A stretch of 58,771 nt of DNA, taken from NCBI GenBank assembly GCA_039908345.1, contig JAMOBD010000011.1:1-58771 (forward strand), given 5' to 3'. Every line of letters starts with the position of its first letter. Positions within the stretch are counted from its first letter, which is position 1. The position numbers and the translations under genes are program-made. The DNA is from Magnetospirillum sp. WYHS-4 (GTDB taxonomy: Bacteria; Pseudomonadota; Alphaproteobacteria; Rhodospirillales; GLO-3). The notes under the pieces were generated by a model that was not told where the DNA came from, did not search any database, and saw only the letters and a list, made by a program, of their open reading frames with translations. Positions 3,567 through 39,716 of the stretch are shown piece by piece.

Positions 3567-3585
3567 TTATACCAACATGCATTGA

Positions 3586-6921: not shown

Positions 6922-6947
6922 GGTTCCGTTCCTAGTGGCGGCATGGC

Positions 6948-12077: not shown

Positions 12078-12081
12078 GTTT

Positions 12082-13353: not shown

Positions 13354-13515
13354 CGCATCGCCTCCCTTGAACGCCCATCTTCCCAGCCTCGACGCCCGAT
13401 ACTCCCACGGCGAACCGGATTGCGCAACCGGCGCCGCCACGGCGCCTCGGGGCCTGGAATACCGCCGGAGAAACCGATATTCTGGCGGAAGATTGGGAAC
13501 AGGATATCCAAGGCC

Positions 13516-19452: not shown

Positions 19453-20640
19453 TCAGTCTCGTGCCGTTTCCCGGTATCGCACGGGGTCCATGGTGTAGTG
19501 GTCACTGTAGAACGTCTGTACCCGGCGATACAGGTGCTTGCCGAACCAGATATCGCGTTCGCGGTGTTTCGACAGCTCGCGAAACTTGTATTCGCAGCCG
19601 TGGCAAATGGTGCCGGGCTCGTTCTCGAACTGCCGACGGACGATCTCCCGATAATGGGGCGAGTTCCAGACTTCCTCGATCCGCACCTTGCCCATGTCCT
19701 CCTTCTGCGAGAAGAACCAGTCGCGGCAGCAGATGGCGTAGGCCTGCAGATCAGACCTCACGGCCAGATGATTCCGCAGGAATTCGCAGCCGAACTTCTC
19801 GGGCGCGTCGTCGGGAAAAAGCTCCGGATGGAGGAGCGAAGCGCGATCCCAGACCGTACCCCCCTGGCCGGTCTTGTCCTGCAGGGTCGACCCCTGAACC
19901 ACCACCTGCCAAAGCCCCTTGCGGCACCAATAGTCGATGAACCGGTCGCATTCCTCTCGCGGCTGGCGGACCCGGCTGAGATCGGTGGAAAGGCGGATCG
20001 GATTGCCTCGCTTGCGGTTTTCCTCGATGAAGCGGCAGAGCGCGGCGTGCACGCGGTCGTAGTCGACGCCCACGCGCTGGCTTTCGCAGCTTTCCTTGAA
20101 TCCGTCCAGCGACACCTGGACGTAGAAGTCGGCGCCCTTCCGCTCCGCCAGATCCAGCAGCCGGTCGACATTCCGGTCGGTCAGCGCCGTCCCGTTGGTA
20201 TTGAAGGCCAAGGTCCGCGCCCCCTTGTCGAGGGCGTAGCCGATCATGTCGAAAATGCGCTTGTTCAGCAGCGGCTCGCCCCAGGACGCCGGGCCGATGG
20301 AGGTCTTCGACATGTCGGGGACGGAATCGATCAAACGCTTCCAGTTCTCGAAACTCATGGTGCCGTGGTGTTTGTCGCCCTGCAGGGATTCGTATCCCTC
20401 GCCGTACATGGGGCACATGGTGCATTTCAGATTGCATTCGTCGGAAATCGAGACGTTGACCGACGGCGGATAGGCGGGCCGGCTGGCCAGGAACCGCCGA
20501 AGATCGAAGCGGGAATCGGCTGCGGACGGAATCCGCAGGACCTCGCCCTTGGCCGCCCGCGCGTTCAGCGCCTCGGCCCGTCGGTCGGCCCACCAAGCCT
20601 CGTCGTGTTCTTCCATCGCTTCGGACGCTTTGGAACCCAT
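19453..20640 (-). CDS. radical SAM protein with SPASM-type C-terminus
   Basis: The 395-residue protein has the radical SAM cluster CNLKCTMC (cysteines 69, 73, 76) after SVNVSISDE. A C-terminal set of cysteines (FGCEF, AICCRDW, TICHGCEY) should bind auxiliary iron-sulfur clusters as in SPASM proteins. The middle has the barrel features TLAFNTNGTAL and DFYVQVSLDG. ATG at 20640 follows GGAGGCG. It lies 41 bases downstream of the B12-type radical SAM gene and directly upstream of the aminotransferase. In glycan loci such enzymes may carry out dehydration, epimerisation or peptide modification; the substrate here is unknown. Confidence 0.88.
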   Translation of the reverse strand: MGSKASEAMEEHDEAWWADRRAEALNARAAKGEVLRIPSAADSRFDLRRFLASRPAYPPSVNVSISDECNLKCTMCPMYGEGYESLQGDKHHGTMSFENWKRLIDSVPDMSKTSIGPASWGEPLLNKRIFDMIGYALDKGARTLAFNTNGTALTDRNVDRLLDLAERKGADFYVQVSLDGFKESCESQRVGVDYDRVHAALCRFIEENRKRGNPIRLSTDLSRVRQPREECDRFIDYWCRKGLWQVVVQGSTLQDKTGQGGTVWDRASLLHPELFPDDAPEKFGCEFLRNHLAVRSDLQAYAICCRDWFFSQKEDMGKVRIEEVWNSPHYREIVRRQFENEPGTICHGCEYKFRELSKHRERDIWFGKHLYRRVQTFYSDHYTMDPVRYRETARD

Positions 20641-20681
20641 GGCATCGCCTCCATCCGCCGGAATCTCGCTCGACAACCGCG

Positions 20682-22313
20682 TCAGGTTGCCACCTGTTCG
20701 GAACGGCCCTCGGCACTCCACTGAGGCTCGGCCTTCTGGTGTTCGCTCTTGTGAACGTCTTCGAGCCAGATCGGCCGGTACGTATATTCATGATGAAGGG
20801 GCTTTGGAAACGCCGGCATTCCAGCGCCCCTTTCCGCCGCCAAGCGTTCCGCGTTCCGCTTGGCGTGGGTGATCCAGGGACGATGCCAGAAAGGATCGGT
20901 ATTGCCCATCAACAATTGCCTCTCCCGCCGCTTGGCCATCTGGGGGGCCCCGTACACTTCCTGGAGAAAGCGGGCATGCCAGTATTCGAGCGCCGCCGAA
21001 CTCAGGGTCGCCGTCTCGACGAGCGCGGCTCCCCACCGCCGATGAAGGCTCCAATAGGCATGCCAATCCATGGCTTGGTGAAGCTCCGGATAGTGGGCAG
21101 GGTGACTCAGCCACAAGCCGCGTCCCGCATGGGCGTCCCGATAGACTTCCTGGCCAGGATAAGGGGTCAGGATATTGACGCCGACTTCGTCCAGGTTCAG
21201 TTCGAGCGCGAAATCGATCGAGTCCCGGATGGTTTCCTCGCTCTCGAACGGATGTCCGATGATGAAGGAGCCGCGCTTCGTGATGCCAAGCTCCTCGAAC
21301 ATGGCGTAGGCGGTCCTGTAATCATCCAGGGTGCAGCCCTTCTTCATCGCCTTCATGATGTCCGAGTTGCCCGACTCGATCCCCATCGTGATCCGGTTGA
21401 AGCCGGCTTCCTTCATTCGAACGAGAAGCGCGATGTCGCATATCGTCGAGGCACGGGTCAGGCAATAGAACCCCACCGCTTCCGGAATCCGGCCTTTTCG
21501 CTTGAGGTGAATAATTCCGTCGCACAAGGCCATGATACGGTCTTTTTCGATGGTCAGGGTGTCATCGTAGAAGATGAACATCCTGGCCCCATGCCGCTCC
21601 ACGCAATTGAGGATCTCCTCGATAACCCTCTCTATCGAACGGCAGGCCAAGCGTGTTTGCCGGCTCGTACAGAAGTTGCATCCGAAGGGACAGCCGCGAG
21701 CGGTTTGGAGGCCATCGGCCTGAACCAGTCCCACGGACGGATCGACCAACTGGTAGCCCTTCATCCTCACCGCATTCCGATCGGGAAAGAAGGAATCGAG
21801 TTCCCCGCCGGTCAGCCGCTGCGGCGCCTTCAGAAGGCGTGGAAACCGGAGATCCCAGACAAACCGATCCAGAACATCTCCGTCCGCCAGGGCACGCATG
21901 GGCTTTTCGCCCTCCCAAATCACGCCGTAGTCCACGAACGGGGCCAGATCGTCGATGGTATGCTGGGGCAAGGCGGTGATATGCGCCCCCCCGAACACCG
22001 TCGTCGTAGCGGGGCAACGCTCCTTGACCCGGCGAATGATATCGCGGGCGAAGGGATATTCGGGGCTCGTCGACGTGATGCCGACAATATCCGGATTGCT
22101 TTTCAACGCCATCTCGACCGTCGATTCAGCATCAAGATGTTCGCGCTCTCCGTCGATAATTTCCGCTTTGTGGCCACCATCCATCAAGTATCCGGCAATA
22201 CTTAAGAGCCCGAGCGGGGGCATATATTCCATCACATCGTCCCTGTCTATCTTGTATGTCTTCTCGTAGATGTATGACGAGTACGATGGGCGTATCAGAG
22301 AAATTCTTGCCAT
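20682..22313 (-). CDS. radical SAM protein with N-terminal B12-binding-like domain
   Basis: The 543-residue protein has an N-terminal alpha/beta domain (about 1-150, with PPLGLLSIAGYLMDGGHKAEIID and DIVGITSTS) as in B12-binding radical SAM enzymes. I do not see the DxHxxG histidine motif, so cobalamin may bind base-off or not at all. The cluster motif is CPFGCNFC (208, 212, 215), followed by the barrel (MGIESGNSDIMKAMKKG). The last 130 residues are an unassigned helical extension rich in tryptophan and histidine. It is first in a minus-strand operon; the ATG at 22313 is preceded by a large dyad (22348-22401). Methylation or ring rearrangement of a sugar is possible. Confidence 0.87.
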   Translation of the reverse strand: MARISLIRPSYSSYIYEKTYKIDRDDVMEYMPPLGLLSIAGYLMDGGHKAEIIDGEREHLDAESTVEMALKSNPDIVGITSTSPEYPFARDIIRRVKERCPATTTVFGGAHITALPQHTIDDLAPFVDYGVIWEGEKPMRALADGDVLDRFVWDLRFPRLLKAPQRLTGGELDSFFPDRNAVRMKGYQLVDPSVGLVQADGLQTARGCPFGCNFCTSRQTRLACRSIERVIEEILNCVERHGARMFIFYDDTLTIEKDRIMALCDGIIHLKRKGRIPEAVGFYCLTRASTICDIALLVRMKEAGFNRITMGIESGNSDIMKAMKKGCTLDDYRTAYAMFEELGITKRGSFIIGHPFESEETIRDSIDFALELNLDEVGVNILTPYPGQEVYRDAHAGRGLWLSHPAHYPELHQAMDWHAYWSLHRRWGAALVETATLSSAALEYWHARFLQEVYGAPQMAKRRERQLLMGNTDPFWHRPWITHAKRNAERLAAERGAGMPAFPKPLHHEYTYRPIWLEDVHKSEHQKAEPQWSAEGRSEQVAT

Positions 22314-22347
22314 TACATTACTTTCGCGGCAGAATGTAGCTTACTTA

Positions 22348-22401
22348 TTGAACAGGTGGCAGCCTATCTCCAAATATGCCATTCGCCACCTGGATGTTCA
22401 A
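22348..22401. repeat. large imperfect inverted repeat upstream of the radical SAM operon
   Basis: The left arm TTGAACAGGTGGC (22348-22360) pairs with the right arm GCCACCT-GGAT-GTTCAA (22385-22401), which has a three to four base bulge; the 24-base spacer is AT-rich. It sits 35-88 bases upstream of the ATG at 22313 and could be an operator, an attenuator or the footprint of a small element. Confidence 0.55.
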
Positions 22402-22437
22402 CCACTATCGGCCACCCCTATCGGTCGGGTCCGGGCC

Positions 22438-23724
22438 TCAGCTCGATGGCGGCCACCGCTCGGCGAACTCGCGCATTTCCGGATGCAAGACCGGGATATC
22501 GCCCAGCAACGGATAGAGCGTCCCGCATTGCCCGCAGCCCAGGGTCCGTTCCCTTCCCGGCACGCCGGCCAGCGGGGGGCGGTCCGGACAGACCGGGCAG
22601 GCCAGGGCCACGGGCCGGGGCAGGCCTTGTCCCGGCTTCCGCGCGACCATGAAGAACTCCGCGCCCCGCCCGCCATCGGCACCGATCCAGGTTGCTTCCG
22701 CCACCTTGCGCAGGCCTTTCCGCAATCCGAAGGGCATCGGCTCCCCGGCAGGGGCCGAAACGCCGCCCCGGTTCAGCAGCCACTTCTCGAGGAGCAGGAT
22801 GGGTTCGAGGATGACGACCATCCATTCGGGAACGAACTCGATGTAATATTCGACCTCCAACCCCGCCTGCCGTGCGACGGCGTGCCAGCCTTCGCGGTCG
22901 AAGAAACTGTCGATGCCCTGGTGCCAGCGGGCGAAGCGGGCGCCGGTGGAGTCCAGACGGAAGGCCAGACTGGCATCTCGGAACTTGTCGGTGAATCCGG
23001 AGAAGACCGCCCGTCCGCCCGGCGCCAGGACGCGCGCGACCTCCGCCAGGGCCGGCGCCGCGCCACGCTGGCAGTCGTCGATGGTATGAACCATGGCGAC
23101 CGTCTTCAGGCAGGCATCGGCGAAGGGAAGCGCATAGACGTCGCCACTGACCAGGAACGACGAGCAGCCCTCCCGCTTGGCCTCTAGAAGCGCCAAGGGC
23201 GCCAGATCGAAGCCGATGTCGATGGTGCCGGGGGTGAAGACCAAACGCGAATGACGGCCCGCCTGGAACCCGATTTCCATCGCCGGGCCTTCCAGGGCGG
23301 CCCGGGCGCGGAACAAGTAGGTCTCCGCCGCCTTGAATAGCGTCAGCATGGGGCGACCGCGCCAGTTGTCGTCGGCCAGAAGATGGTCGAACATCCGGCC
23401 GGTCTCCCGGCGGGCCAGGAAATCCGTGTCCGCCGGCTTCCAGGTCGTGGCCAGGGCCGCCATGGAATGCAGGAGCGTCGCGTAGGTTTCCTGACGTCGC
23501 GTGAACCCGCGCCCGCGGCTCATGCCCGGCACGAGCTTCCCGGGATGGCCGATCACCGAACGCAAGGCGTTCGTCGTGGCCGGGTCGCGGCATTCGTCGA
23601 TGAGTTCGACGATGGCCCGTCCGGTCTGGGCGCGCGACAGTTTGAAATGACTGGAATACAGCTGGAACAACTGGGCATAGGTCGAAAAGTCGTATCCGTC
23701 GCTTCTTTTCCGGTCGTAGGCCAT
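22438..23724 (-). CDS. SAM-dependent methyltransferase with zinc-ribbon tail
   Basis: This 428-residue protein has a class I methyltransferase core in the middle: AMEIGFQAGRHSRL (motif I), IDIGFDLAPLAL, VSGDVYALPFADACLKTVAMVHTID (motif IV) and VLAPGGRAVFSG. The C-terminal 60 residues hold CPVC and CGQCGTLYPLLGDIPVL, a Trm112-like zinc ribbon. The N-terminal 140 residues are helical and unassigned. ATG at 23724 lies nine bases after the stop of the deacetylase-like gene. It is the final gene of the operon that starts with the AsnB-type gene at 29433. Confidence 0.85.
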   Translation of the reverse strand: MAYDRKRSDGYDFSTYAQLFQLYSSHFKLSRAQTGRAIVELIDECRDPATTNALRSVIGHPGKLVPGMSRGRGFTRRQETYATLLHSMAALATTWKPADTDFLARRETGRMFDHLLADDNWRGRPMLTLFKAAETYLFRARAALEGPAMEIGFQAGRHSRLVFTPGTIDIGFDLAPLALLEAKREGCSSFLVSGDVYALPFADACLKTVAMVHTIDDCQRGAAPALAEVARVLAPGGRAVFSGFTDKFRDASLAFRLDSTGARFARWHQGIDSFFDREGWHAVARQAGLEVEYYIEFVPEWMVVILEPILLLEKWLLNRGGVSAPAGEPMPFGLRKGLRKVAEATWIGADGGRGAEFFMVARKPGQGLPRPVALACPVCPDRPPLAGVPGRERTLGCGQCGTLYPLLGDIPVLHPEMREFAERWPPSS

Positions 23725-23733
23725 GGTCCACCG

Positions 23734-25449
23734 TCACCTTATTCCGGACAACCGGTATTCGGGTTCCGCCCGCCGGATCGCCACCCCGGCCGGCCCGTCG
23801 AGACGGGGAGGTCGGTCGGGGTGAAGGGCAAGCGTCCAAATGGCGTCCCCCTGGCGAAGAGTGAAGGACATGGGGCCGCGCGGGGCGGGGAGGATCAAGT
23901 CCCCGCCATCCCGGCTTGCCCGGATTCCGGCCCGTTCCGTCCACCAGTCGAAAAAGGCCTCGGCGGTGACGCACCAAGCCCCGGCCCGCCGGGCCGCCCC
24001 CAGGGTCGCCTCGAAGGTCGGCCAATGGGGCCCGTAGAAATCCGTCGAGCCGAAAGATCTCGGGTGAATGCCGGCCGCCATCGCGCCCCCCACCCGGGCG
24101 GTGGCGCCGACGATGGTCTCGATGGTCTCGGTGGGGTCGTGGGAATTTCCGTTGGTCAGCACGCCGTCCCAAAGCGGCGTCGGAACGAAGATCACCTCGC
24201 TGGACCGCCGTTGGCCGTGGTTGTAGCCGCGCACCGGGCCGGCGGCCGCCAGGCGGAACCCGGAAGCGTCCAGGTAGGCCGGGCTGGTATCCATGCCCAG
24301 GCCGGCCCGCTCGAGCAGATCGGCGAAGGTCGCCAGATTCAGCTTGAGGAAATGGTGCCGTCCGGTCCGCGGCCGGCGCCCGACCGCCCCGTCCAGGATT
24401 TCGGCCTGCAAGGCGATGTCTTCGGGATGACCTTCGGAACTGAAGGCCCCGTATTGCAGGCCGATCTCGTGGCCGCGCGCCATCATGTCGCGGAAGTGGG
24501 CCGTGTAGCGGGGCATTTTCAGGATGTCGTAATTGGGATCGTAGATCTTCTGGCGCAGTCGCCACAGCCAGCCCGTTTCCGCCTTCGAGCGGTAGGGGAC
24601 ATAGATGTTGAAGCTGCCCCGCAGGCCCTGGTCCTCGAGCCACCGCGCCACCCGGGGGATACGGTCGTAGGGACCCGGCTTGAACAGGTTCAGTCCTTCC
24701 CGCCACCCCGTCCGCAGGGCCGCCCGCCAATTCCGGCCGGGCGCCTTCAGTTGATTGACGACCCGCCGCCGGACGCCATGGGCCTGCTTGGCGCGTTCCA
24801 GAAGGTCCTTGCCGTAGGTGTCGAAGTCCAAGGCGACCAGGAAACTCATGGTGAAGCCGGGGGGCGCGCGGTCGACGGTCAGGAACGGCCGGCCGGCCGA
24901 GGCGAAGGTCTCCGCCAGCCGGTCCTTGAACCACAGGGCGAGCAGATCGACGGCCGGCACGTCCAGGGGCGGCGGCGTGGTCCGGACGGACCAGGAATCT
25001 ATGCGCTCGGCACGGCGGGCCGCATCGATTTCCCACCGGGCCGTGGAAAGCTGGTGCACCGCCAGGAACAGGTCGAACGGCCAGGCGTCGCCCGTGTCGC
25101 CCCCTACGAAGGCGGCGGCCGGAAGCGTCACCGTTTCCCCCGACGGGAGACCATGGACGCGGGGTTCCCATTCGCCGTCCCCGCCGGCCAGGGGAATATC
25201 CAGGCAGGCCGCGCCGGGGCGGGGCATCCGCTTCAGGTCTTGCGGCGGCAGGTAGCGCAGGACGACGGCGTCCGGCGGCAAGTCGGCAAGGCTGTCCGTG
25301 GACATCCTTCGACCGCCGAAGGCCAGCCCGGCCGTCTCCCACAGGACGGCCAGGCCGTGGGCGGCCTCGGGCGAGAGGGCGTCACAGAGCAGAACGATCA
25401 TCGGATCGCCCGTTTCCCAGGGGGCGAAGGCATGGCGTGGGGGGGTCAT
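23734..25449 (-). CDS. polysaccharide-deacetylase-like protein, possibly inactive
   Basis: This 571-residue protein has the layout of NodB-type deacetylases from about residue 200: FLVALDFDTYGKDLLERAK in the place of the first metal motif, and GHEIGLQYGAFSSEG where active relatives have a histidine pair. Its neighbour at 26201 keeps SHDVDA and GLHPS, so this paralogue seems to have lost metal ligands. The N-terminal 190 residues are unassigned, and the C-terminal 60 form a small beta domain. ATG at 25449 overlaps the formyltransferase stop (ATGA). It may bind glycan without cleaving it, or use other ligands. Confidence 0.75.
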   Translation of the reverse strand: MTPPRHAFAPWETGDPMIVLLCDALSPEAAHGLAVLWETAGLAFGGRRMSTDSLADLPPDAVVLRYLPPQDLKRMPRPGAACLDIPLAGGDGEWEPRVHGLPSGETVTLPAAAFVGGDTGDAWPFDLFLAVHQLSTARWEIDAARRAERIDSWSVRTTPPPLDVPAVDLLALWFKDRLAETFASAGRPFLTVDRAPPGFTMSFLVALDFDTYGKDLLERAKQAHGVRRRVVNQLKAPGRNWRAALRTGWREGLNLFKPGPYDRIPRVARWLEDQGLRGSFNIYVPYRSKAETGWLWRLRQKIYDPNYDILKMPRYTAHFRDMMARGHEIGLQYGAFSSEGHPEDIALQAEILDGAVGRRPRTGRHHFLKLNLATFADLLERAGLGMDTSPAYLDASGFRLAAAGPVRGYNHGQRRSSEVIFVPTPLWDGVLTNGNSHDPTETIETIVGATARVGGAMAAGIHPRSFGSTDFYGPHWPTFEATLGAARRAGAWCVTAEAFFDWWTERAGIRASRDGGDLILPAPRGPMSFTLRQGDAIWTLALHPDRPPRLDGPAGVAIRRAEPEYRLSGIR

Positions 25450-26204
25450 GGGGTCCGGGACCTCCAGGTCATGCGGCCGACCTTCAGGCCGCGCCGATGG
25501 AACTCGGCCGCTTCGTCCAATGTCGGCAAGGGGCGATAGGGCCGTTGGGGCATGGGCTCGCCCGGGCGTTGGCCCTCGGCAAGCCGATCCACCACCTCCA
25601 GCACCAGGTCGACGGCCTCCCGGTTCAACGCCGCCATGATGTCCAGCATGGCCAGGCCGGTGCCGTCGATCAGGCGCTTGCCGGCCAGGTCGCCGGCATC
25701 GATGGTCTCGACCATGAAATGCGCCGAAACGCCGAAACTTGTCCGGCCGTCCATCATCGCCCAGTAGGTCGGCAGGTAGGAACGGTAGTCCGGCAAATCG
25801 CCCAGGTGGATGTTGAGAACCCCATGGCGCGGCAAGGCCAGAGTTTCCGCCTTGAAGAATTCGGACTGGTTGTTGATTACGAGATCGGCGCCCATTTCCC
25901 TGATATGGGTACGGAATTCCGCGCCGTTAACCGATGGGAAGCCGCGCCAAGTTACCCCGGTGTCCCGCAATAGGCCATTGATACCGGCCCGGGCATAGAG
26001 GAACGAGGCAAGGGCGCCTTGCAAGACATTGCCCCATCCGAGGAGGCGCAACAGGACCCGGACCTTGCGGGGAGTCCGCCGCGCGCCGGCCCGGATGGCC
26101 GCCAGTTCCACCGCATGCCCCCGCGCCTTCAGACGGGGCAACAGATCCCGGAAATAGGAATCCTGGGAAAAGGCGCCGTGCGCCGTGCAGAAGACGATCT
26201 TCAT
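25446..26204 (-). CDS. sugar N-formyltransferase
   Basis: This 252-residue member of the formyltetrahydrofolate-dependent transferases has the catalytic triad region GVLNIHLGDLPDYRSYLPTYW (asparagine and histidine) and VETIDAGDLAG (aspartate). It is shorter than tRNA formyltransferase and lacks its C-terminal barrel, as do several sugar N-formyltransferases. The start is fixed by ATGA overlap with the stop of the deacetylase-like gene upstream, and its own stop overlaps the next ATG. Deacetylase followed by formyltransferase suggests an acetamido group being exchanged for a formamido group; this is inference. Confidence 0.83.
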   Translation of the reverse strand: MKIVFCTAHGAFSQDSYFRDLLPRLKARGHAVELAAIRAGARRTPRKVRVLLRLLGWGNVLQGALASFLYARAGINGLLRDTGVTWRGFPSVNGAEFRTHIREMGADLVINNQSEFFKAETLALPRHGVLNIHLGDLPDYRSYLPTYWAMMDGRTSFGVSAHFMVETIDAGDLAGKRLIDGTGLAMLDIMAALNREAVDLVLEVVDRLAEGQRPGEPMPQRPYRPLPTLDEAAEFHRRGLKVGRMTWRSRTP

Positions 26205-27538
26205 CCGCCGTCCTCCCCCGCTTTCCTCGGCAATAGCGAAAGGAGGGTCCGGAATCCGTCGTCCCATCCATAGTCCGGGCCGAAGACGTGGGAATGCCAG
26301 ATGCAGGAGCACTCGCCACCGGTCTCGACGACCTCCTTGACCCAGCCGGCCAGGGCCAGCGGTCTTTCGCTCCCGGTCATCGGCCGGTAGTCGTAGAATT
26401 GGGAATCCATGAAGACGAAGGGCAGGACGGCCAGATCGAGCGCCCGCCCCGCCCGATCGTCCCAAGGCCGGAACAGCAGCGCCGCTCCGGCCCGAAAGCC
26501 CGGCCGGTCATTGAAACCGAGTGTGGAATCCTCGCGGAAGCCCGCCTGTTCCTGGGCCTTCCAGGAATCGGCCCATGAGAACATCAGCCAATGCTGGCGA
26601 CAGGCCGTGACGGGCCCGCCCAGGACTCCTTCCAGACGCTCCCGCTGCATCGCCAGTTCGGCGGCCGAGCGATAGGAGGCAGCCGAGGGATGAAGCCCGA
26701 TCTCCCAACCTTCGGCCTGCAGGACCCGCAGGCTGTCCACCAGTTCCCGGCTCGCCGGCGCAGCGATGTCGTAGCCCGGATCGATCAGCCACGTGACCGG
26801 GTTCCGCCATCCCCCCGGCAAGCCCGCGAACACATGGATGCGACTCCGCAACCCTTGCGCCTTCTCCAACTCGCAGATCCGCGCTAGACCGGCGTAGTCG
26901 GCCGACGACCAGGCGAATCTCGCCGCATCGGCCAGGGCCCCCCAGGCCTTGCCGCCCCGAAGCCGCCCCGCATGGCGAACCGCGTTGAAGAGATGGAAGG
27001 CCGTCCGCTTGCCCCGGATGGCAACCGTCTTCCGGATCGCATCCACGTCATGGCTCAGGTGCAACCGGCCCTCGGGCGCGGGCCCTAAGCCCCCGCCCCC
27101 GGACTCCCGCAGGGCCCAGGCCCGGAGAAACAGGGCGATCCGGTTCACCCAGGCTCGCTGCCAAATGCGCGGATCGATCCCCGTCAGACGCACACTGTAG
27201 GAATGCACGGGTCCATGGCGGCGCTCGTATTGCCGCTCGGCCTCCCCATGAAGATACCAGGCGATGGCCGACAGCCAGTCCGTGCTCCTCCAGCGATGTT
27301 CCTGCTCGCCGGCCCCGGCCAGCGCTTCGGGAACCAGGAGGTTCCCCCCGTCCACTCCCAGATGTTCCGCCCAGGGCGGCAGGGCAACGTCGGCGAGGGC
27401 GCAGTCTCCGTCGCGGGGCCAGGACAGGGCGGGAATATCCATCGCCAAGGGAAAATCCGGTGCCGCCGGAAAGTACCGGCGCCCCACCTCGCCCAGGTAA
27501 TGAAGAATTCGGGAAGGGCGGCGGGACGGGGCGTTCAT
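26201..27538 (-). CDS. polysaccharide deacetylase family protein
   Basis: The 445-residue protein has NodB-like motifs: LHLSHDVDAIRKTVAIRGKR (histidine and two aspartates, first metal motif) near residue 165, and WEIGLHPSAASYRS near 285, with a late histidine in CIWHSHVFG. The N-terminal 150 residues are unassigned. Such enzymes remove N-acetyl groups from sugars with a bound metal. There is no signal peptide, so a cytoplasmic lipid-linked or nucleotide-linked substrate is likely. Start ATG at 27538 overlaps the stop of the AsnB-type gene; the stop overlaps the formyltransferase start. Confidence 0.8.
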   Translation of the reverse strand: MNAPSRRPSRILHYLGEVGRRYFPAAPDFPLAMDIPALSWPRDGDCALADVALPPWAEHLGVDGGNLLVPEALAGAGEQEHRWRSTDWLSAIAWYLHGEAERQYERRHGPVHSYSVRLTGIDPRIWQRAWVNRIALFLRAWALRESGGGGLGPAPEGRLHLSHDVDAIRKTVAIRGKRTAFHLFNAVRHAGRLRGGKAWGALADAARFAWSSADYAGLARICELEKAQGLRSRIHVFAGLPGGWRNPVTWLIDPGYDIAAPASRELVDSLRVLQAEGWEIGLHPSAASYRSAAELAMQRERLEGVLGGPVTACRQHWLMFSWADSWKAQEQAGFREDSTLGFNDRPGFRAGAALLFRPWDDRAGRALDLAVLPFVFMDSQFYDYRPMTGSERPLALAGWVKEVVETGGECSCIWHSHVFGPDYGWDDGFRTLLSLLPRKAGEDGG

Positions 27539-29433
27539 CGGCAGTCCAGGAACTCGCGGAACCAGAGTTCCAGACACAGGATGCCCCAGGTCTGGCGGAA
27601 TCCCCCGGAATCCGTGGCAATCGCCGCATCCAGCCCTTCCCGCTTCCACAGCCCCCTTTCCCGGCAGGAACGGCTGTTCAACAGGTCGCAAACGAACTCG
27701 CGAACCGGCCCCGCGGCCATCCAGGGCCCGAGCGGAACCGGAAAACCCATCTTGTCGCGGCGATCGAGAACCTCGGGAACGACTCGGCCCCGAAAGGCAC
27801 GGCGCAGCAAGCGCTTGGAGTCGCCACCGCCGAACTTGAAGCGGGGCGGAAGCCGGGTGGCGATGTCGACCACCTCGATATCGATCAGCGGAACACGGAC
27901 CTCGAGCCCGTGAGCCATGCTGACCCGGTCCTCCACCTGCAGCAGGGCCGGCAGGGAATTGGCGAGATCGAAGCGGACCATGTGGTTGATGTAGGACCCC
28001 AGGGGCTGTCCATCGAAGATCGCGGCGAAGCGGGAGAATACCGCTTCCCGGTCCGCCGCCGACACGACGTCCGGATCAAGGACGGCCTCGGCCTGGGCGA
28101 AGCGATTGATGAGCCGGAAATAGCGGGCGCCCATGGCGTCGAACAGGCCATCCTGCCAGAACTGCCGCAGCAGGGGCACGTAGTCCTTGATCATCGGCAG
28201 GCTGGCGATCACGTTTTCCAAGGTCACCAGATAGTGCCCGCTCTCCTGGGTGCCGTAGATGGCGCCCTTCAGGGCCTGTTCCAGATAGGCGATCAGATAG
28301 CGGGCATAGCCGCCGAACAGTTCGTCGCCTCCCTGCCCCCCCAGCAGGACGGTCACGCTTTCGGCCGCCGCCTTGTTGACCATGTATTGCGGAAAGACGC
28401 CCGGACCGGCGACCGGTTCATCCAGCAGACGGACCAGGGTAGGCATCAAGGCCACGAATTCGGCCGCGGTCGGCACGACGTCGTGATAGACGGCCCCAAG
28501 GGACTCCGCCACCCGTCGCGCGTACCGGCTTTCGTCGTAGGCCGGCCCCTCGGCGAAGCGCCCGCAGAAGACCTCGATCGGCCGTTCCGAGGCCTGGGCG
28601 GCCAGGGTGGCGACGACGGAGGTATCCAGTCCCCCCGAAAGATGGGTTCCCAGCCGCACGTCGCTCCGCAGGTTCCGGCGGATGCTGCGTTCCAGGGCGT
28701 TCGTCAGCGCCTCCAGCGCCTCGTCCTCCGCCATCGCTTCGCCGCCGGAGAAATCTGGCGCCCAATAACGTCGCGTTTCCAGGATTTCGCCGCCTCGCCC
28801 GCGCACGGCCGTTCCCGGCTCGACCTTGCGCACGCCCCCGAACAGGGTCCGATCCTCCAGGCAATATTGGAAGGTCAGGTACTCCCCCAGGGCCATGGGG
28901 TCCAGGCGGGCTTCGAGGGCCGGGTGGGCGAGCAGGGCCTTGATTTCCGAGCCCGCCAGCAAGATGTCCCCCACCGGAGCCAGATAGAGGGGCTTGACGC
29001 CCAACTGGTCGCGAACCGCCCACCACTCGCCGCTCGCCCGGTCCACCCAGAGAAAGGCGAACATGCCGTTCAGACGGGGAAAGGCGGCGGCGCCGTCGGC
29101 GGCCAGCATCTCGAGCAGGACTTCGGTGTCGGAGGTGCCGCGGAAGCTGTGTCCGCGCCCCGCCAATTCGGCCCGCAAATCGAGATAGTTGGAGATGAAC
29201 CCGTTGAAGACGATCAGGTGGCGGCCGTCGGCCGTCGCCATGGGCTGGGCCCCGCCATCGGAGAGATCGATGATGCTCAGCCGGCGGTGCCCGAGGCAGA
29301 ACCCCGGACCAGACGCCATCCCGGACCCGTTGGGCCCCCGGTGGGCTATCGCTTCCAGCATGGCGGCGACGATTCCCCGGAACGCGTCGCCGGAAGCGTC
29401 GTTCGCCGCGAATACGCCTACCAGTCCGCACAT
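27535..29433 (-). CDS. AsnB-type glutamine amidotransferase
   Basis: This 632-residue enzyme has an N-terminal glutaminase domain with the nucleophile as Cys2 (MCGLVGVF), which fixes the start at 29433 rather than an upstream ATG at 29466. The synthetase domain follows with the ATP pyrophosphatase loop HLSGGLDTSVVA and GGQGGDELFGGY. The family makes asparagine, but homologues such as WbpS in O-antigen loci are thought to amidate uronic acids to uronamides. That fits a locus making diamino-uronates. It is first in a coupled operon asnB-like, deacetylase, formyltransferase, deacetylase-like, methyltransferase. Confidence 0.9.
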   Translation of the reverse strand: MCGLVGVFAANDASGDAFRGIVAAMLEAIAHRGPNGSGMASGPGFCLGHRRLSIIDLSDGGAQPMATADGRHLIVFNGFISNYLDLRAELAGRGHSFRGTSDTEVLLEMLAADGAAAFPRLNGMFAFLWVDRASGEWWAVRDQLGVKPLYLAPVGDILLAGSEIKALLAHPALEARLDPMALGEYLTFQYCLEDRTLFGGVRKVEPGTAVRGRGGEILETRRYWAPDFSGGEAMAEDEALEALTNALERSIRRNLRSDVRLGTHLSGGLDTSVVATLAAQASERPIEVFCGRFAEGPAYDESRYARRVAESLGAVYHDVVPTAAEFVALMPTLVRLLDEPVAGPGVFPQYMVNKAAAESVTVLLGGQGGDELFGGYARYLIAYLEQALKGAIYGTQESGHYLVTLENVIASLPMIKDYVPLLRQFWQDGLFDAMGARYFRLINRFAQAEAVLDPDVVSAADREAVFSRFAAIFDGQPLGSYINHMVRFDLANSLPALLQVEDRVSMAHGLEVRVPLIDIEVVDIATRLPPRFKFGGGDSKRLLRRAFRGRVVPEVLDRRDKMGFPVPLGPWMAAGPVREFVCDLLNSRSCRERGLWKREGLDAAIATDSGGFRQTWGILCLELWFREFLDCR

Positions 29434-29651
29434 GGCGTCGATCCAACTCGTTCCCGTATCGGCCATCGGCCAATACCATGTATCACCAAGTCAACCCGAC
29501 GGATCGCTAAAAATCCGTATCCGTCGTCACGAATCCGCAAGCCGGCGGTGCGTCGGCCGCCCGACTGCGGTATCCTTCCCGGCTTGAACGAAGTCCCCAC
29601 CCTTGCCATCTAACCTGGGCGAAGGGTGGCGAAGCGAAGGCAAGGCAATCG

Positions 29652-30815
29652 ATGAACCAGCTATCGCTGTTCTGGAGACGGCTTTTCACCACCCGGCGAC
29701 ATGCGGGATCGGGGGACAACAATACCCTGGGGCGGCTGATTCGCCAGGGTTCGGCCTATTATCTGGCTCGCGACGGTCGGGCACGGCCGCCCATGACGAT
29801 CTTTCTGACGGTGAACGGCCATTGCAATCTGCGCTGCCGCATGTGCGACATCGGCCTGCAGAACCGCGAGTCCATGTTCTACCACAACCTGCGCGGCGAA
29901 AGCGGCAGCGACTTCCCCATCGACCGCTACCGATCCCTGATCGACGAGGTGGCCTCGTTCAAGCCCCTTCTAGGCGTCACGACGACCGAGCCGCTTCTTT
30001 ACAAGCCCATGTTCGAGGCCGTGGATTATGCCCGCCATCGCGGCCTGGACACCAACATCACGACCAATGGACTGCGGGTTGGGGAACGCATCGACGAGAT
30101 CATGGATTCCGGCCTTTACCGTCTGTCCGTGTCCTTGGACGGGCCTCCGGCAATCCACGACCACATGCGCGGTCTGGCCGGCTGCTACGACCGCGTCGTG
30201 GACGGGCTGCGACAGGTCGCGGAACGGAAGCGCGCGCGGGGCCTGGATCGGCCGCACCTGATGGTCAATTCCTTCATCACCGACGAGAATCACGCTCACA
30301 TCGTCGATTTCGTCGCCGGGCTGCCGCTCCAGGACATCGACATCGTCAATATCAAGCTGATGGCCTTCTTCACCCGGGAGATGGTCGAGCGGCACAACGC
30401 CGTCTTCGGCGACCGGTACCCGGCGACGTCGACCTGCTTCCCCGACGACTTCAATCCGGCCAATCTGGATCTCGATGCGGTTTGCCGGCAAGTCGCCGAG
30501 GTGAAGGCTCGCTTCGGCGACAAGGTCGCCTTCCATTTCGAACCCGACGCGAACATGCTTCGCCGCTACTATTACCAGCCGGCCGAGTTCATGGACGGCA
30601 CCAAATGCGTCGTTCCCTGGTTCGTAGCCCAGATCACCAACGACGGCGACTTGGCCGTCTTGACGCGATGCTACGATCTGCGACTCGGAAACATCATGGA
30701 ACAGCCGTTCCTGGACGTCTGGAACGGCGAAAAGATGCGCGGTTTCCGTAGGGATCTGCGAAAGCACGGCCGGTTCCCCGGATGCGCCCGGTGCGACGGC
30801 GTCTTGTACAGGTAA
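29652..30815 (+). CDS. radical SAM/SPASM protein, first of a tandem pair
   Basis: This 387-residue protein has CNLRCRMC (cysteines 58, 62, 65) after the strand PPMTIFLTVNGH. C-terminal cysteines (TKCVVPW, TRCYD, GCARCDG) should bind an auxiliary cluster. It is clearly paralogous to the next gene: both have QGSAYYL/NGAAYYL-RDGRARPP just before the cluster, GLQNR after it, and the RHNAVFGD segment. ATG at 29652 follows purine-rich AAGGCAA. The divergent AsnB-type operon starts 218 bases away. Substrate unknown. Confidence 0.87.
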   Translation: MNQLSLFWRRLFTTRRHAGSGDNNTLGRLIRQGSAYYLARDGRARPPMTIFLTVNGHCNLRCRMCDIGLQNRESMFYHNLRGESGSDFPIDRYRSLIDEVASFKPLLGVTTTEPLLYKPMFEAVDYARHRGLDTNITTNGLRVGERIDEIMDSGLYRLSVSLDGPPAIHDHMRGLAGCYDRVVDGLRQVAERKRARGLDRPHLMVNSFITDENHAHIVDFVAGLPLQDIDIVNIKLMAFFTREMVERHNAVFGDRYPATSTCFPDDFNPANLDLDAVCRQVAEVKARFGDKVAFHFEPDANMLRRYYYQPAEFMDGTKCVVPWFVAQITNDGDLAVLTRCYDLRLGNIMEQPFLDVWNGEKMRGFRRDLRKHGRFPGCARCDGVLYR

Positions 30816-30826
30816 GGGTAGGGCCG

Positions 30827-32005
30827 ATGAACCTGAAGACCTTGACCAAGAATATCCGGGTCCTGGCGGAACGCGGCTTCGGTATCCAGAAATACCCGAC
30901 CGCCCACAAGAACGCCCACATCCTGCGCCTGCTCGCCAACGGCGCCGCCTATTACCTGAACCGGGACGGCCGCGCCCGGCCGCCCGTGTCCGTCTTTATC
31001 CATGTCAACAACCACTGCAACCTCAAATGCCGGTTTTGCGACTACGGGCTGCAGAACCGCGACAGCATGTTCTTCCAGAACCTGGCGGGCGGCCACGCCG
31101 CCAACATGCCCATCGAGGATTTCAAGCGCATCGTCGACGAAGTCAAGGGCTTCACCCCTTTCGTCAGCATTCCCGCCACCGAACCCCTGCTCTACGGCCC
31201 GTTGCCGGAAGCGATCGCCTACATCCGCCGGAACGGCCTTCATTGTTCCATCAACACCAACGCCGTCACCTTGGAAAAGCGGGCCGAGGATCTGGTCGAA
31301 GCGGGTCTGACCAAGATCGTCGTCTCCGTCGACGGCCCGAAGGACGTCCACGACTTGGTGCGAGGCGTTCCCGGCGTGTTCGAGAAGGTCGTGGCCGGCG
31401 TGAACCGGCTGGCCGAGGTCAAGCGCGCCAAGGGAGTCGACCACCCGGACATCTACATCAACTACGTGATCGGCGACCAGAACTACGCCACCCTCGAAGA
31501 CTGCGTCGCCAGCCTGCCCATGGAAGCCATCCGGCAGGTGGATTTCCGGGTGATGTTCTACTGCACGGAAGACTTGGCGGCCCGCCACAATGCCGTGTTC
31601 GGCGACAAGTATCACGCCACCGAGGCCTGCCTCAGCGACACGGCCGACCTGGCCTCCATCGATACCGATCTCCTGTGGGATCAAGTCCACCGCTTGACGG
31701 CGAGGACCGAGGGCAAGTGCAAGTTCTTCTTCCGCCACGGCCGCCGCGATCTCCACACCTACTTCAACGAGCCGGGAACTTTCCTGGACGACACCCGGTG
31801 CGTGGTGGCCTGGTTCGCCATGCAGATTTCCACCGACGGCACCCTGGCGCCTCTGCAGCGGTGCTACCACAATACCTTCGGGAACATTCTCGAACGCGGC
31901 TTCGAGGGATGCTGGAACGGCCCGGAATACCGGGCCTTCCGGCAAGACCTGCAAAGGAACGGACGGTTCACCGCCTGCGCCCGGTGCGAGGGCGTCAACT
32001 TCTGA
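30827..32005 (+). CDS. radical SAM/SPASM protein, second of a tandem pair
   Basis: This 392-residue paralogue of the preceding gene has CNLKCRFC (64, 68, 71) and the same C-terminal cysteine pattern (TRCVVAW, QRCYHN, ACARCEG). The ATG at 30827 lies 11 bases after the previous stop behind AAGGGTAGGG. A product from an upstream ATG at 30782 would overlap the first gene by 34 bases and is less likely. Two recent paralogues side by side suggest that they act on related substrates or as a heterodimer. Confidence 0.87.
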   Translation: MNLKTLTKNIRVLAERGFGIQKYPTAHKNAHILRLLANGAAYYLNRDGRARPPVSVFIHVNNHCNLKCRFCDYGLQNRDSMFFQNLAGGHAANMPIEDFKRIVDEVKGFTPFVSIPATEPLLYGPLPEAIAYIRRNGLHCSINTNAVTLEKRAEDLVEAGLTKIVVSVDGPKDVHDLVRGVPGVFEKVVAGVNRLAEVKRAKGVDHPDIYINYVIGDQNYATLEDCVASLPMEAIRQVDFRVMFYCTEDLAARHNAVFGDKYHATEACLSDTADLASIDTDLLWDQVHRLTARTEGKCKFFFRHGRRDLHTYFNEPGTFLDDTRCVVAWFAMQISTDGTLAPLQRCYHNTFGNILERGFEGCWNGPEYRAFRQDLQRNGRFTACARCEGVNF

Positions 32006-32015
32006 GGAACACCCC

Positions 32016-33551
32016 ATGTCCGGCAACGACGTGCTGAGGGGATTGGAGGCGGCGGAACACGTCAAGCCGTCCTTCGCCGAGGCGAAGCGGCCGCTGACCG
32101 CCGTTTTGATCCTGCCCCCCGACTGGGGCGCGGTCGGGTCCCTGGTGGCCAGGTATTCGGAAAGCGGAGGCATCGGGTTCAAGCCGCCGCAAGGCATTCT
32201 TTACGTCGCGACGGCCCTGCATGCCTTCTCCCCGCACCGGGCCCACGTCATCGACGCGCTGGCCGAAGGACTGTCGTTCGAGGCCCTGGCCCGTCGGGTG
32301 GCGGAACTGCGTCCCGACGTGGTGGGCATCTCCGCCTGGACCGACTGGTGGTGGCCCGCCTGGAGAACCGGGGAGGCGATCAAGCGGTCCCTGCCCGACA
32401 CCCATCTCGTCTACGGCGGGCCGCACCTGGGCATCTATCCGCAGGAAACCCTGGATCATCCCTTCGTCGATTCGGTCATCGTAGGCGACGGGGAAATGCC
32501 CTTTCTCTACCTGTGCAACATGTTGGCCAACGGTATCAAGGACCCGGACTTCCCCGGCCTTCATTTCAAGGAACACGGCATCAAACCGCCGCCGGGAACC
32601 TTCTTCATCCAGAAGGACCTGGATGCGCTTCCCCATCCGGATCGGCGCCTGCTGCCGATCCGGAATTATTCGTCCGTTCTGGCCAAGAGCGCCTACGTGA
32701 CGACCATGATCACCAGCCGCGGATGTCCGCACCAGTGCACCTTCTGCAAGCTTAATTTCCAGAAAACCCTGTCGCGCTCGGCCGAAAGCGTGGCCGCCGA
32801 ATTCGCCGAGATCCAGGCCCTGGGCATCCACGAGGTCGAGATCTACGACGACACCTTCACCAGTTCCCGAAAGCGCGTCGAAGCCATCTGCACCCAGTTG
32901 ATCGCGAACGGCAACAGAGTGGAGTGGGCCATCCGCGACCGGGTCAACAACGCCGATCCAGAGCTGTTGGCGCTCATGCGTCGCGCCGGGTGCCGACGGG
33001 TCCACTACGGGGTGGAATCGGGCAGCCAGGCGGTCCTGGACCTGATGCGCAAGCACACCACGCCGGACAAGGCCCGGCAAGCCATCCGCGCGGCCAAGGA
33101 CGCGGGCCTGACGGTGTTGGCCTTCTTCATGCTGGGCAACGTCGGCGAGACTCAGGACGACATGCGGACCACCATCGACTTCGCCGTCGAACTGGACCCG
33201 GACTTCGCCGAATTCTCGATCACCATTCCTTACCCGGGGACCGAGATGTACCGGCAATGCCTGGCCGACGGCACCATCCAGAGCGACTATTGGGCGGCCT
33301 TCGCCCGTCGGCCGGAAGAAAATTTCCGGCCGCCGCGCCTGGTCGAAAGCCATGCCACCCGCGAGCAACTGGTCGCCATGCGGAACCGGGCGGTACGGAA
33401 ATTCTACTTGCGGCCCAAGTATCTGTGGAAAGCGCTGAGGGAGGTTTCGAGCCTGGGCGAGCTGACGCGTAAGGCCCTGATGGGGTTGCGCCTGGTCAAT
33501 TCGGCCTACACCCCGTTCAGCCCCTATTCGCGGCGTGACCAGGAACCCTGA
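32016..33551 (+). CDS. B12-binding-type radical SAM protein
   Basis: The 511-residue protein has an N-terminal alpha/beta domain (about 28-170, TAVLILPPDWGAV, DVVGISAWTD, VYGGPHLGIYP) and the radical SAM cluster CPHQCTFC (237, 241, 244). These are followed by the barrel with HYGVESGSQAVLDLMRKHT and FFMLGNVGET, the usual order in the B12-binding branch. A DxHxxG motif is not evident. ATG at 32016 is 10 bases after the tandem SPASM pair, so three radical SAM genes form one operon. It ends convergent with the GT2 gene, one base apart. Confidence 0.87.
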   Translation: MSGNDVLRGLEAAEHVKPSFAEAKRPLTAVLILPPDWGAVGSLVARYSESGGIGFKPPQGILYVATALHAFSPHRAHVIDALAEGLSFEALARRVAELRPDVVGISAWTDWWWPAWRTGEAIKRSLPDTHLVYGGPHLGIYPQETLDHPFVDSVIVGDGEMPFLYLCNMLANGIKDPDFPGLHFKEHGIKPPPGTFFIQKDLDALPHPDRRLLPIRNYSSVLAKSAYVTTMITSRGCPHQCTFCKLNFQKTLSRSAESVAAEFAEIQALGIHEVEIYDDTFTSSRKRVEAICTQLIANGNRVEWAIRDRVNNADPELLALMRRAGCRRVHYGVESGSQAVLDLMRKHTTPDKARQAIRAAKDAGLTVLAFFMLGNVGETQDDMRTTIDFAVELDPDFAEFSITIPYPGTEMYRQCLADGTIQSDYWAAFARRPEENFRPPRLVESHATREQLVAMRNRAVRKFYLRPKYLWKALREVSSLGELTRKALMGLRLVNSAYTPFSPYSRRDQEP

Positions 33552-33552: not shown

Positions 33553-34347
33553 TCACCCCCACTTGCGCCAACGCCACCCGCCGAAAGGCCAGTAGTACAG
33601 GATCACCATCACCATGTAGCCCAGGGTGGTGACCGAACTGACCATCTTGCTTTGGGTCTGGCGATGATCGTAGCGCAGGGTGAAAGGGGCTTCGCCGATA
33701 CGTGCCCCGATCAGATGAAGCTTGACCAGCTTCTCCAGAGTCCCCGTGAATCCCAGGCCCTTGAGCTGGATGAAGGAATTTCCGTAAACCGCGATGGCCT
33801 TCTGGACGATCCGGGCGCGATAGGCCCGGTAGCCGCAGGAGTAATCCCTTACGCCGGGGATCGGAAAGAAGAAGCCCATGAAATAGCGGGCACATTGGGT
33901 GAGCAGCATCCGATGGGCATTCAGGCCCTTCTGCCCGCCTCCCGGCGCGAAGCGCGAGGCGATGACCACATCGTAGCCGTGGGACAGTTCGATCAGCAGG
34001 CGCGTCGTGTAGTGCGAGCCATGGGTTTCATCGCAATCCATGCGGATGATCGCATCGTCGGGATCGGCGATTTCGGCGGCGCGCTCGAACAGGTCCCGCG
34101 CCGTTTCCCCCAGGCCACGATTGATCTTGTGGGGGATGACCTCCAATGTCGGAACCTCGGCCTGCAACTCGGCAAGGGCCTCGCCGGTGCCGTCCCGCGA
34201 ACCATCGTCGCAGACGAGAATGACGTGCCGCCATCCCATCTTCGTCGACAATTCATGCAGGTTCCGCACCACGGGCCGTATCGCCGCCTCCTCGTTGTAG
34301 GCCGGCAGGATGAAGATCACCCGAGAGTCCTGGATCGATTTCGCCAT
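33553..34347 (-). CDS. family 2 glycosyltransferase
   Basis: This 264-residue GT-A-fold transferase shows FILPAYNEEAAIRPVVRNL, VCDDGSRDGTGEAL, and the metal-binding DxD in IIRMDCDETHGSHY, as in dolichol or undecaprenyl phosphate mannosyltransferase relatives. The C-terminus has a hydrophobic segment, YMVMVILYYWPFGGW, that may lie on the membrane. It probably loads a sugar onto a polyprenyl phosphate. The ATG at 34347 follows AGGA. It lies 20 bases after the large membrane protein gene, and a lipid-linked donor feeding that protein is an attractive idea. Confidence 0.88.
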   Translation of the reverse strand: MAKSIQDSRVIFILPAYNEEAAIRPVVRNLHELSTKMGWRHVILVCDDGSRDGTGEALAELQAEVPTLEVIPHKINRGLGETARDLFERAAEIADPDDAIIRMDCDETHGSHYTTRLLIELSHGYDVVIASRFAPGGGQKGLNAHRMLLTQCARYFMGFFFPIPGVRDYSCGYRAYRARIVQKAIAVYGNSFIQLKGLGFTGTLEKLVKLHLIGARIGEAPFTLRYDHRQTQSKMVSSVTTLGYMVMVILYYWPFGGWRWRKWG

Positions 34348-36734: not shown

Positions 36735-36856
36735 GAGATTCCGCTCCATTGGCCCCGTCCCCAGCCTGCGTGACCACCCATGCCTTGTCAACAAGACCTG
36801 CCGACGTCTTCCCGGGAATTCTTTGTCGGTTGGGTCGCTGTGGTGTAAGAAGGGGA

Positions 36857-38467: not shown

Positions 38468-38475
38468 GGAACTCC

Positions 38476-39513: not shown

Positions 39514-39616
39514 GTCGCCCTCCTTTCCAAAGGGGGCCTTGCCGGGCGACGCGGCCGAAAAATGCACGGCCGGCCACAGGGCGACGAGGATAGGCCAGGC
39601 CCGGCGGATTTGCCCA

Positions 39617-39645
39617 GAGCAATTCCGGCCTTGACGGAATTGCTC
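39617..39645. repeat. perfect 11-base inverted repeat in divergent spacer
   Basis: GAGCAATTCCG and CGGAATTGCTC enclose a 7-base loop, with no T run on either strand. It lies about 100 bases upstream of the GNAT start and looks like an operator or structured leader. Confidence 0.55.
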
Positions 39646-39686
39646 ATCGCTCCGCCCGGAGGGCGGGCGGCCAAAAGCAATAACAA

Positions 39687-39716
39687 GAGCCGATTCCGTC
39701 ATCCCTGGATCGGCTC
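39687..39716. repeat. second inverted repeat in the same spacer
   Basis: GAGCCGAT and ATCGGCTC pair around TCC-GTCATCCCT-GG, giving about 10 pairs with one bulged T. Together with the repeat at 39617-39645 it makes this 298-base spacer unusually structured. It lies about 95 bases upstream of the ATG at 39812. Confidence 0.45.

Follow-up and report, generated by a model that had tools for sequence, protein, structure and literature searches.

The 58,771-bp contig JAMOBD010000011.1 of Magnetospirillum sp. WYHS-4 (contig C11), referred to here as the window, carries five radical S-adenosylmethionine (rSAM) genes, named rS1, rB1, rS2, rS3 and rB2, within 14,099 bp. The genome comprises 3.65 Mb in 172 contigs. 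On balance, the locus probably makes a surface glycan with a modified 2,3-diamino-2,3-dideoxy uronic acid, the carbon skeleton of which the five rSAM enzymes would modify. The observed basis of this explanation consists of the gene content and layout of the locus, the recurring neighbourhood of rS2 relatives in other genomes, and, for rS2 and rB2, the similarity of fold to solved structures.

The rSAM genes and their gene run

The rSAM genes and the genes that run with them are listed below.

18297-19448, minus strand: DegT1, DegT-family aminotransferase, last in the asnB run (PF01041, 1e-97)
19453-20640, minus strand: rS1, rSAM enzyme with a C-terminal SPASM/twitch region (PF04055 and PF13186 over cut-off; CxxxCxxC; phmmer DesII, 2e-5)
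20682-22313, minus strand: rB1, rSAM enzyme with a B12-binding domain (PF02310, 2e-21; PF04055, 3e-18; phmmer AprD4, 5e-21)
22438-23724, minus strand: MT1, S-adenosylmethionine (SAM) methyltransferase (PF08241, 8e-8)
23734-25449, minus strand: dacB, divergent relative of the VimE-like deacetylases (NF053580, 36.2 bits; cut-off 440)
25446-26204, minus strand: fmtB, formyltransferase (PF00551, 5e-9)
26201-27538, minus strand: dacA, VimE-like deacetylase (NF053580, 46.2 bits; cut-off 440; HDVD and GLHxS stretches)
27535-29433, minus strand: asnB, AsnB-type amidotransferase (WbpS-like), first in the run (TIGR01536, 437 bits, over cut-off)
29652-30815, plus strand: rS2, rSAM/twitch enzyme (PF04055, PF13186; AlphaFold2 (AF2) model with a predicted local distance difference test score (pLDDT) of 89; fold nearest BlsE)
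30827-32005, plus strand: rS3, paralog of rS2 (PF04055, PF13186; sister of rS2 in the tree)
32016-33551, plus strand: rB2, rSAM enzyme with a B12-binding domain (PF04055, PF02310; AF2 pLDDT 83; fold nearest AprD4)

A previous sequence-only reading of the window had placed five rSAM enzymes with intact clusters at these positions, and the Pfam search bore this out, as Radical_SAM was matched over cut-off in five out of five proteins, with one CxxxCxxC in each. The domain types that it had proposed were likewise recovered, SPASM being over cut-off in the genes at 19453, 29652 and 30827 and B12-binding in those at 20682 and 32016. The whole genome holds 43 PF04055 matches. Five in 14,099 bp compare with an expected 0.17 (Poisson P 9e-7 at one place), and when the 43 matches were placed at random in simulation, such a stretch arose somewhere in 22 of 20,000 cases. 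The density of rSAM genes at this locus is not a product of chance. Other groups were found in the same genome, four matches on contig C30 within ~9 kb and five on contig C1 at 58-82 kb, and clustering of rSAM genes is therefore a habit of this genome. In the C30 stretch (L096, G000:C30:1-14000), the ~10 kb at 112-10461 hold four rSAM matches, three of them genes with CxxxCxxC and one lacking the motif; with a GT2-like (glycosyltransferase family 2) gene recognised by eye, this stretch is a possible further radical-sugar or natural-product cluster.

On the minus strand, the genes follow the order asnB-dacA-fmtB-dacB-MT1-rB1-rS1-DegT1. The first four overlap consecutively by 4 bp, and the later gaps in the run measure 9, 124, 41 and 4 bp; the ATG start of rS1 lies at 20640, its open reading frame (ORF) being open to 20721. 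Module B (rS2, rS3 and rB2; 29652-33551) is divergent from the asnB run across a 218-bp gap. The sequence-only reading had described two similar modules that surround the operon. Module B stands divergently beside the asnB run, and the description failed for module A (rB1 and rS1), which lies inside the run: given the overlaps and short gaps on one strand, module A is by layout part of the AsnB unit and not a flank. The two modules are alike in type and are not copies, and their description as similar is weak. The sole close paralog pair of the five is rS2 and rS3 (44% identical over 382 aa), the other pairs being rS1 with rS2 (30% over 165 aa), rS1 with rS3 (30% over 183 aa) and rB1 with rB2 (31% over 377 aa).

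A 26-row tree placed rS2 and rS3 as sisters with a support of 97/96, and among the rows sampled the tandem pair is therefore a duplication in this lineage. The SPASM-type enzymes rS1, rS2 and rS3 each hold only four auxiliary cysteines, the single-cluster pattern that we take to distinguish a twitch from a SPASM domain. These are C319, C340, C378 and C381 in rS2, with the same set in rS3, and C312, C331/332, C373 and C376 in rS1. Cys occupies the C340 column in 14 of the 26 aligned rows and the other three auxiliary columns in all 26.

Nearest structures and the likely substrate

Structure models were analysed for rS2 and rB2. The predicted rB2 model was nearest to AprD4 (PDB 6fd2; Z 31.9, 2.5 Å over 409 residues, 22% identity), followed by OxsB (Z 27.3), MgmA (27.1), CysS (26.0) and TsrM (26.0). 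It shares the overall fold of AprD4, a radical 1,2-diol dehydratase, and scores below the cut-off of the AprD4 equivalog NF033070 (cut-off 500; rB2 116 bits, rB1 86.4 bits). PF02310 is over cut-off in rB1 and rB2, in keeping with a B12-dependent rSAM methylase (class B), but with the AprD4-like fold of the rB2 model cobalamin may or may not be used. The predicted rS2 model was nearest to BlsE (PDB 7vob; Z 25.4, 3.0 Å over 294 residues, 20% identity), and SkfB (Z 23.7), DesII (23.6), SuiB (22.1), ChlB (21.4), anSME (20.5) and BtrN (18.0) came after it. BlsE is a cytosylglucuronate decarboxylase, the substrate of which is by its name a glucuronic-acid nucleoside; the rS2 fold is similar, and the BlsE equivalog TIGR04466 was matched below its cut-off of 400 (rS3 62.5 bits, rS2 42.7 bits).

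The nearest solved relatives by sequence were BlsE for rS3, AprD4 for rB1 and rB2, and DesII, then BtrN, for rS1, and a profile of the rS2 family run against the solved structures placed BlsE first by E-value. Radical chemistry on a sugar, as the earlier reading had suggested, is thus favoured, since sugar enzymes lead both the sequence lists (rS3, rB1, rB2 and rS1) and the fold lists (rS2 and rB2).

The same relatives allow for a different product. BlsE, AprD4, DesII and BtrN are the nearest characterised relatives and presumably all belong to secondary-metabolite pathways, which would fit a cluster that makes a small secreted molecule of the aminoglycoside, nucleoside or peptide type, with the glycan genes as shared or coincidental neighbours; the second group of four rSAM genes on C30, with its GT2-like gene, points the same way. 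We consider this unlikely, as GT2, the WecB epimerase, FemAB and AsnB are typical of surface-glycan loci, and the same company recurs in a related locus, L005, together with Polysacc_synt_2, a UDP-sugar dehydrogenase and GT2. In the two gaps read next to rSAM genes, one of 185-218 bp and one of 124 bp, there was no convincing ORF for a precursor peptide such as a RiPP maturase system would have, a further point against a secreted product.

The rS2 neighbourhood in other genomes

A scan of named genomes with four rS rows gave 80 loci, for which stretches of at most about 22 kb were fetched; L005-L045 were examined gene by gene, and for L046-L084 the rSAM matches were counted and never exceeded four. 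Judged by best match, the five kinds of rSAM enzyme do not occur together in any of the 80 loci, and the five-enzyme, two-module set that the earlier reading had put forward is rejected as a conserved unit. At strict thresholds, which leave remote relatives possible, no match was found in 288 other genomes of the class for rB1 (E 1e-50) or rS1 (E 1e-30). Matches to rB2 occurred in 4 of the 288 (E 1e-50), those to dacA in 2 of the 288 (G218 and G241, E 1e-20), and rS3-like genes were rare, being found in 2 of 149 other genomes of the order (E 1e-20). In G218, relatives of rB2 (45%) and dacA (37%) lie within 8 kb, with epimerase, DegT and glycosyltransferase genes. In L092, an rB2 relative (45%) lies with a dacA relative, an epimerase and DegT.

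The neighbourhood was more consistent in the loci closest to rS2. Relatives of asnB were present in 5 of the 10 closest loci, 1 of the next 20 and 2 of the last 50, those of dacA in 3, 0 and 0, and those of femAB in 4, 0 and 0, with Fisher p-values (10 versus 70 loci) of 5e-4, 1.5e-3 and 1.3e-4, which are indicative only because the cut at ten was set post hoc, stretch lengths vary, and L006 and L007 are closely related. All three genes are present in L005, L006 and L007, the last a Rhizobiaceae locus. Any glycan marker was found in 7/10, 5/20 and 12/50 loci, at least two kinds of marker in 6/10, 0/20 and 4/50, and at least two rSAM matches in 2/10, 5/20 and 9/50, in the same order. In addition to WbpS-, VimE- and femAB-type relatives, L005 has Polysacc_synt_2, GT2, a UDP-sugar dehydrogenase and, as split genes, WbpB- and WbpD-like enzymes. 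A pooled Pfam scan of 111 frames from L005, L007, L008 and L010-L013, which had no control set and was not used as a test, gave 12 Radical_SAM, 5 DegT, 4 Asn_synthase, 4 Glycos_transf_1, 3 Glycos_transf_2 and 3 WbmS-like deacetylase matches.

A second recurring partner is protein U, a protein of ~540 aa with no Pfam family over threshold, which is encoded in 6 of the 10 closest loci. Its gene directly adjoins the rS gene in L005, L008, L009 and L013; in L006 and L007, the single gene femAB separates the two:

L005, 8310-9986: protein U
L006, 7114-8763: protein U
L007, 7122-8744: protein U
L008, 308-1936: protein U
L009, 751-2358: protein U
L013, 1454-3046: protein U

In L100, a remote relative of protein U (20%) adjoins an rB2 relative. 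Protein U had no PDB match to E 1, and one of four members scanned gave a sub-threshold Alginate_lyase match (E 0.006), a weak likeness that would fit a role with uronic acids. The control search recovered the protein in 4 of 9 genomes, all four being sources of rows in the query alignment; it was missed in the genome of the window (G000), in G218 and in the genomes of L010-L012. Protein U was probably lost here or never present.

The eight tree rows from loci that bear femAB or U fall on one side of a branch with a support of 76/92, found in 78% of bootstrap trees. Apart from the window, these rows belong to Cyanobacteriota, Acidobacteriota, Bdellovibrionota and Pseudomonadota, a spread over four phyla that suggests transfer between phyla. 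The older unit probably comprised AsnB, dacA, FemAB, protein U and one rS2-type enzyme, and the tandem rS2/rS3 pair and the extra rSAM enzymes look like additions in this lineage. A link to phages or plasmids was considered and rejected, with three partial rS2 matches in phage records and rS3 matches in 46 plasmid records, all below 60% identity.

A separate pairing was seen in the same tree. The rS relatives of L010/L094 (Rhodospirillaceae NORP116, Pseudomonadota) and L011 (Candidatus Magnetominusculus, Nitrospirota) are sisters with a support of 100/100, which suggests a transfer between phyla. L011 holds a SPASM-SPASM-B12 triplet of rS1-like, rS2-like and rB2-like genes, the first and third assigned by Pfam, together with glycosyltransferase family 1 (GT1), ATP-grasp, AsnB-like and DegT genes.

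Comparison with the Wbp/Vim pathway and other glycan loci

Glycan genes lie on both sides of the rSAM genes and within the same gene run as rB1 and rS1. The glycan locus that had been read from the window was confirmed, as GT2, a glycosyltransferase-like protein, two DegT proteins, Gfo/MocA, a WecB-type epimerase, AsnB and formyltransferases are all present. The genes outside the asnB run and module B are as follows.

7551-8672, plus strand: DegT2, DegT-family aminotransferase (PF01041, 5e-92; PseC model below cut-off)
9193-10917, plus strand: tetratricopeptide repeat (TPR) protein, role not assigned (PF14559 only)
10914-12077, plus strand: MT3, SAM methyltransferase (PF13489, 1e-13)
12082-13896, minus strand: glycosyltransferase-like protein (PF13524, 3e-27, residues 483-596)
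13516-15087, plus strand: fused Gfo/MocA oxidoreductase and hexapeptide acyltransferase, WbpB+WbpD-like (PF01408, PF22725, PF00132; split homologs in L005)
15070-16071, minus strand: fmtA, formyltransferase (PF00551, 3e-11)
16022-17158, minus strand: nucleotidyltransferase with NUDIX (PF12804, PF00293)
17258-18331, plus strand: second Gfo/Idh/MocA oxidoreductase (PF02894, PF01408)
33553-34347, minus strand: glycosyltransferase family 2 (PF00535, 4e-17)
34368-36749, minus strand: TPR protein with long hydrophobic stretches, a membrane protein by eye (PF14559 over cut-off)
36749-37912, plus strand: non-hydrolysing UDP-GlcNAc 2-epimerase of the WecB family, WbpI-like role possible (TIGR00236, 229 bits, over cut-off)
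37922-38512, minus strand: hexapeptide acyltransferase (PF00132)
38476-39702, minus strand: FemAB-like acyl/aminoacyl transferase, VimA-like (PF13480; TIGR03019, 151.1 bits; cut-off 260.35)

The upstream part of the frame at 12082-13896 overlaps the next gene, and its true start is probably downstream. From ~41 kb on, the window holds LNT, CorC, YbeY, PhoH, UPF0004/Radical_SAM (MiaB-type) and FUR genes; the MiaB-type gene is the sixth rSAM gene of the window and housekeeping by family. No RNA families or tRNAs were found in the window. The contig end carries transposase-type frames and a Fic protein (1057-4517 and 5653-6819), a possible island edge.

The two proteins that had been called NodB-like have no Pfam match at 1e-3 and match the NCBIfam VimE model weakly. 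An alignment of dacA with four relatives shows conservation of HD(V/I)D and of a His that follows G(L/I), which we take to be metal-binding deacetylase motifs; the dacA version of the latter is GLHPS. The His kept by all five aligned dacA-type proteins is missing from dacB (23734-25449), which may therefore be inactive or altered.

This gene content resembles the Wbp/Vim pathway of Porphyromonas gingivalis. As described for that pathway, the linking sugar is a Wbp-made 2,3-di-N-acetylglucuronic acid, which is amidated by the AsnB protein WbpS, relatives of which fall in TIGR03108, and deacetylated by the putative deacetylase VimE; VimA, likewise a match to TIGR03019 (FemAB), is presumed to attach Ser or Gly (PMC7468200). 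The defining product of the pathway is a 2-N-aminoacyl 3-N-acetyl glucuronamide. The window has in common with it an AsnB-type amidotransferase, a VimE-like deacetylase, a FemAB-type transferase and Gfo/DegT/hexapeptide enzymes for a diamino-uronic acid. The WbpB, WbpD and WbpE families are represented at family level only, by the fusion of PF01408 and PF00132, the second Gfo/MocA protein and DegT twice. PF03721, the family of the UDP-GlcNAc 6-dehydrogenase WbpA, has no match on C11 and three in the genome, one of which, a WbpA-like dehydrogenase on contig C1 (G000:C1), is 48% identical to the L005 enzyme. An exosortase link was rejected, as the genome has no PF09721 match; the control matched in 1 of 14 named genomes.

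We infer a pathway, a substrate and an assignment of reactions to enzymes along the following lines. The Gfo/DegT/hexapeptide enzymes would make the diamino-uronic acid, AsnB would amidate it, dacA would deacetylate the diamino-uronamide, and fmtB and FemAB would re-acylate the deacetylated sugar with a formyl or aminoacyl group. The five rSAM enzymes would alter ring carbons of the diamino-uronic acid or uronamide, or those of sugars next to it, while the substrate is still a nucleotide sugar or is linked to a lipid. With the AprD4-like fold of rB2 and a B12-binding domain in both, rB1 and rB2 may catalyse dehydration/deoxygenation or C-methylation, and the BlsE/DesII/BtrN-like enzymes rS1, rS2 and rS3, with one auxiliary cluster, may catalyse decarboxylation, oxidation or epimerisation.

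A different sugar could also be the target. For both DegT1 and DegT2, PseC is the best-scoring model, and the genome has a second island with NeuB between two rSAM genes, which would agree with rSAM enzymes that modify a nonulosonic acid or a flagellin glycan. This seems to us improbable, and slightly more so than a secreted molecule, as the PseC and LegC scores are below their cut-offs, no NeuB match was obtained among the part of the window's ORFs that was scanned, and uronic acids are the better fit for AsnB and the fused Gfo-hexapeptide protein. The NeuB island itself (L098, G000:C1:60000-79999) has the NeuB gene and its two flanking rSAM genes at 10739-14009; one of these is rS3-like, and the other, 34% identical to rS1, is assigned to the SPASM type by Pfam.

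The least probable alternative is that the rSAM enzymes act not on the sugar ring and instead on the aminoacyl group that a FemAB/VimA-type transferase hangs on the diamino-uronamide: the link of rS2 relatives to FemAB (4 of the 10 closest loci versus 0 of the 70 others), the Ser or Gly presumably added by VimA (PMC7468200) and the structural nearness of rS2 to the peptide enzymes SkfB, SuiB, ChlB and anSME speak for it, and BlsE coming first both by Z and by profile E-value, the putative FemAB of the window falling below the TIGR03019 cut-off and its distance of ~8 kb from rS2 speak against it. A twitch rSAM enzyme working on a FemAB-attached amino acid would be the boldest form of a cross-phylum surface-glycan system in which rSAM chemistry rebuilds a diamino-uronamide, a proposal that we hold to be equally doubtful.

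Several results weigh against the preferred explanation, a surface glycan with a radically modified diamino-uronic acid. The peptide enzymes SkfB, SuiB, ChlB and anSME stand near BlsE in the rS2 ranking, Foldseek ranks SkfB ahead of BlsE by E-value, and a shared rSAM fold says little about substrate. No NCBIfam rSAM model was over cut-off among the matches listed (25 per protein, five proteins). Three of the ten closest loci (L008, L012 and L014) have none of the window's glycan markers, four of the last 50 loci carry at least two kinds, and the p-values of the neighbourhood are, as said, indicative. G241 has a weaker dacA relative and no other match to a window gene in a 20-kb stretch, and protein U was not found in the genome of the window. 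The curated Wbp/Vim models are also matched below their cut-offs, AsnB with 411.0 bits against TIGR03108 (cut-off 816.9), to which it is homologous, the VimE-like proteins with 46.2 (dacA) and 36.2 bits (dacB) against NF053580 (440), and FemAB with 151.1 bits against TIGR03019 (260.35). As all three cut-offs are missed, the locus is not filed as Wbp/Vim and may work like it.

Radical reactions on sugars have been described chiefly for antibiotics, and, if the preferred explanation is true, some bacteria may build surface sugars by radical chemistry. A link of an rSAM family to AsnB/FemAB surface-glycan genes in four phyla would mean that structures are missing from monosaccharide catalogues. 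The association of rS2 with AsnB, FemAB and U offers testable enzyme-substrate pairs and could help to interpret rSAM genes of glycan loci that are so far unexplained. A search of the open literature, with subscription journals mostly outside it, found no link of rSAM genes with AsnB/FemAB/VimE-type loci; in the open literature, nothing was found on radical SAM with FemAB and PEP-CTERM, or with cytosylglucuronate decarboxylase.

The statement that glycan loci usually hold few or no rSAM genes, made in the sequence-only reading, was too strong. A plasmid block of Brachyspira hyodysenteriae holds six rSAM genes among rfb, epimerase and glycosyltransferase genes (PMC4267127), and many rSAM genes in one glycan locus are therefore not new. 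That block differs from the window, as the part of its gene table that we compared lists no AsnB, FemAB or VimE-like gene (PMC4267127), and the best place on the Brachyspira plasmids matches rS3 at 20.8%. The Wbp/Vim pathway shares the AsnB-, VimE- and FemAB-type genes with the window, which has five rSAM enzymes and two formyltransferases in addition, and the main text on the pathway uses the word 'radical' once, for a chemical scavenger (PMC7468200). We regard the locus, which is partly explained in this way, as a glycan locus of the Wbp/Vim-like type to which sugar-type rSAM enzymes have been added, on the basis of a smaller unit that recurs across phyla.

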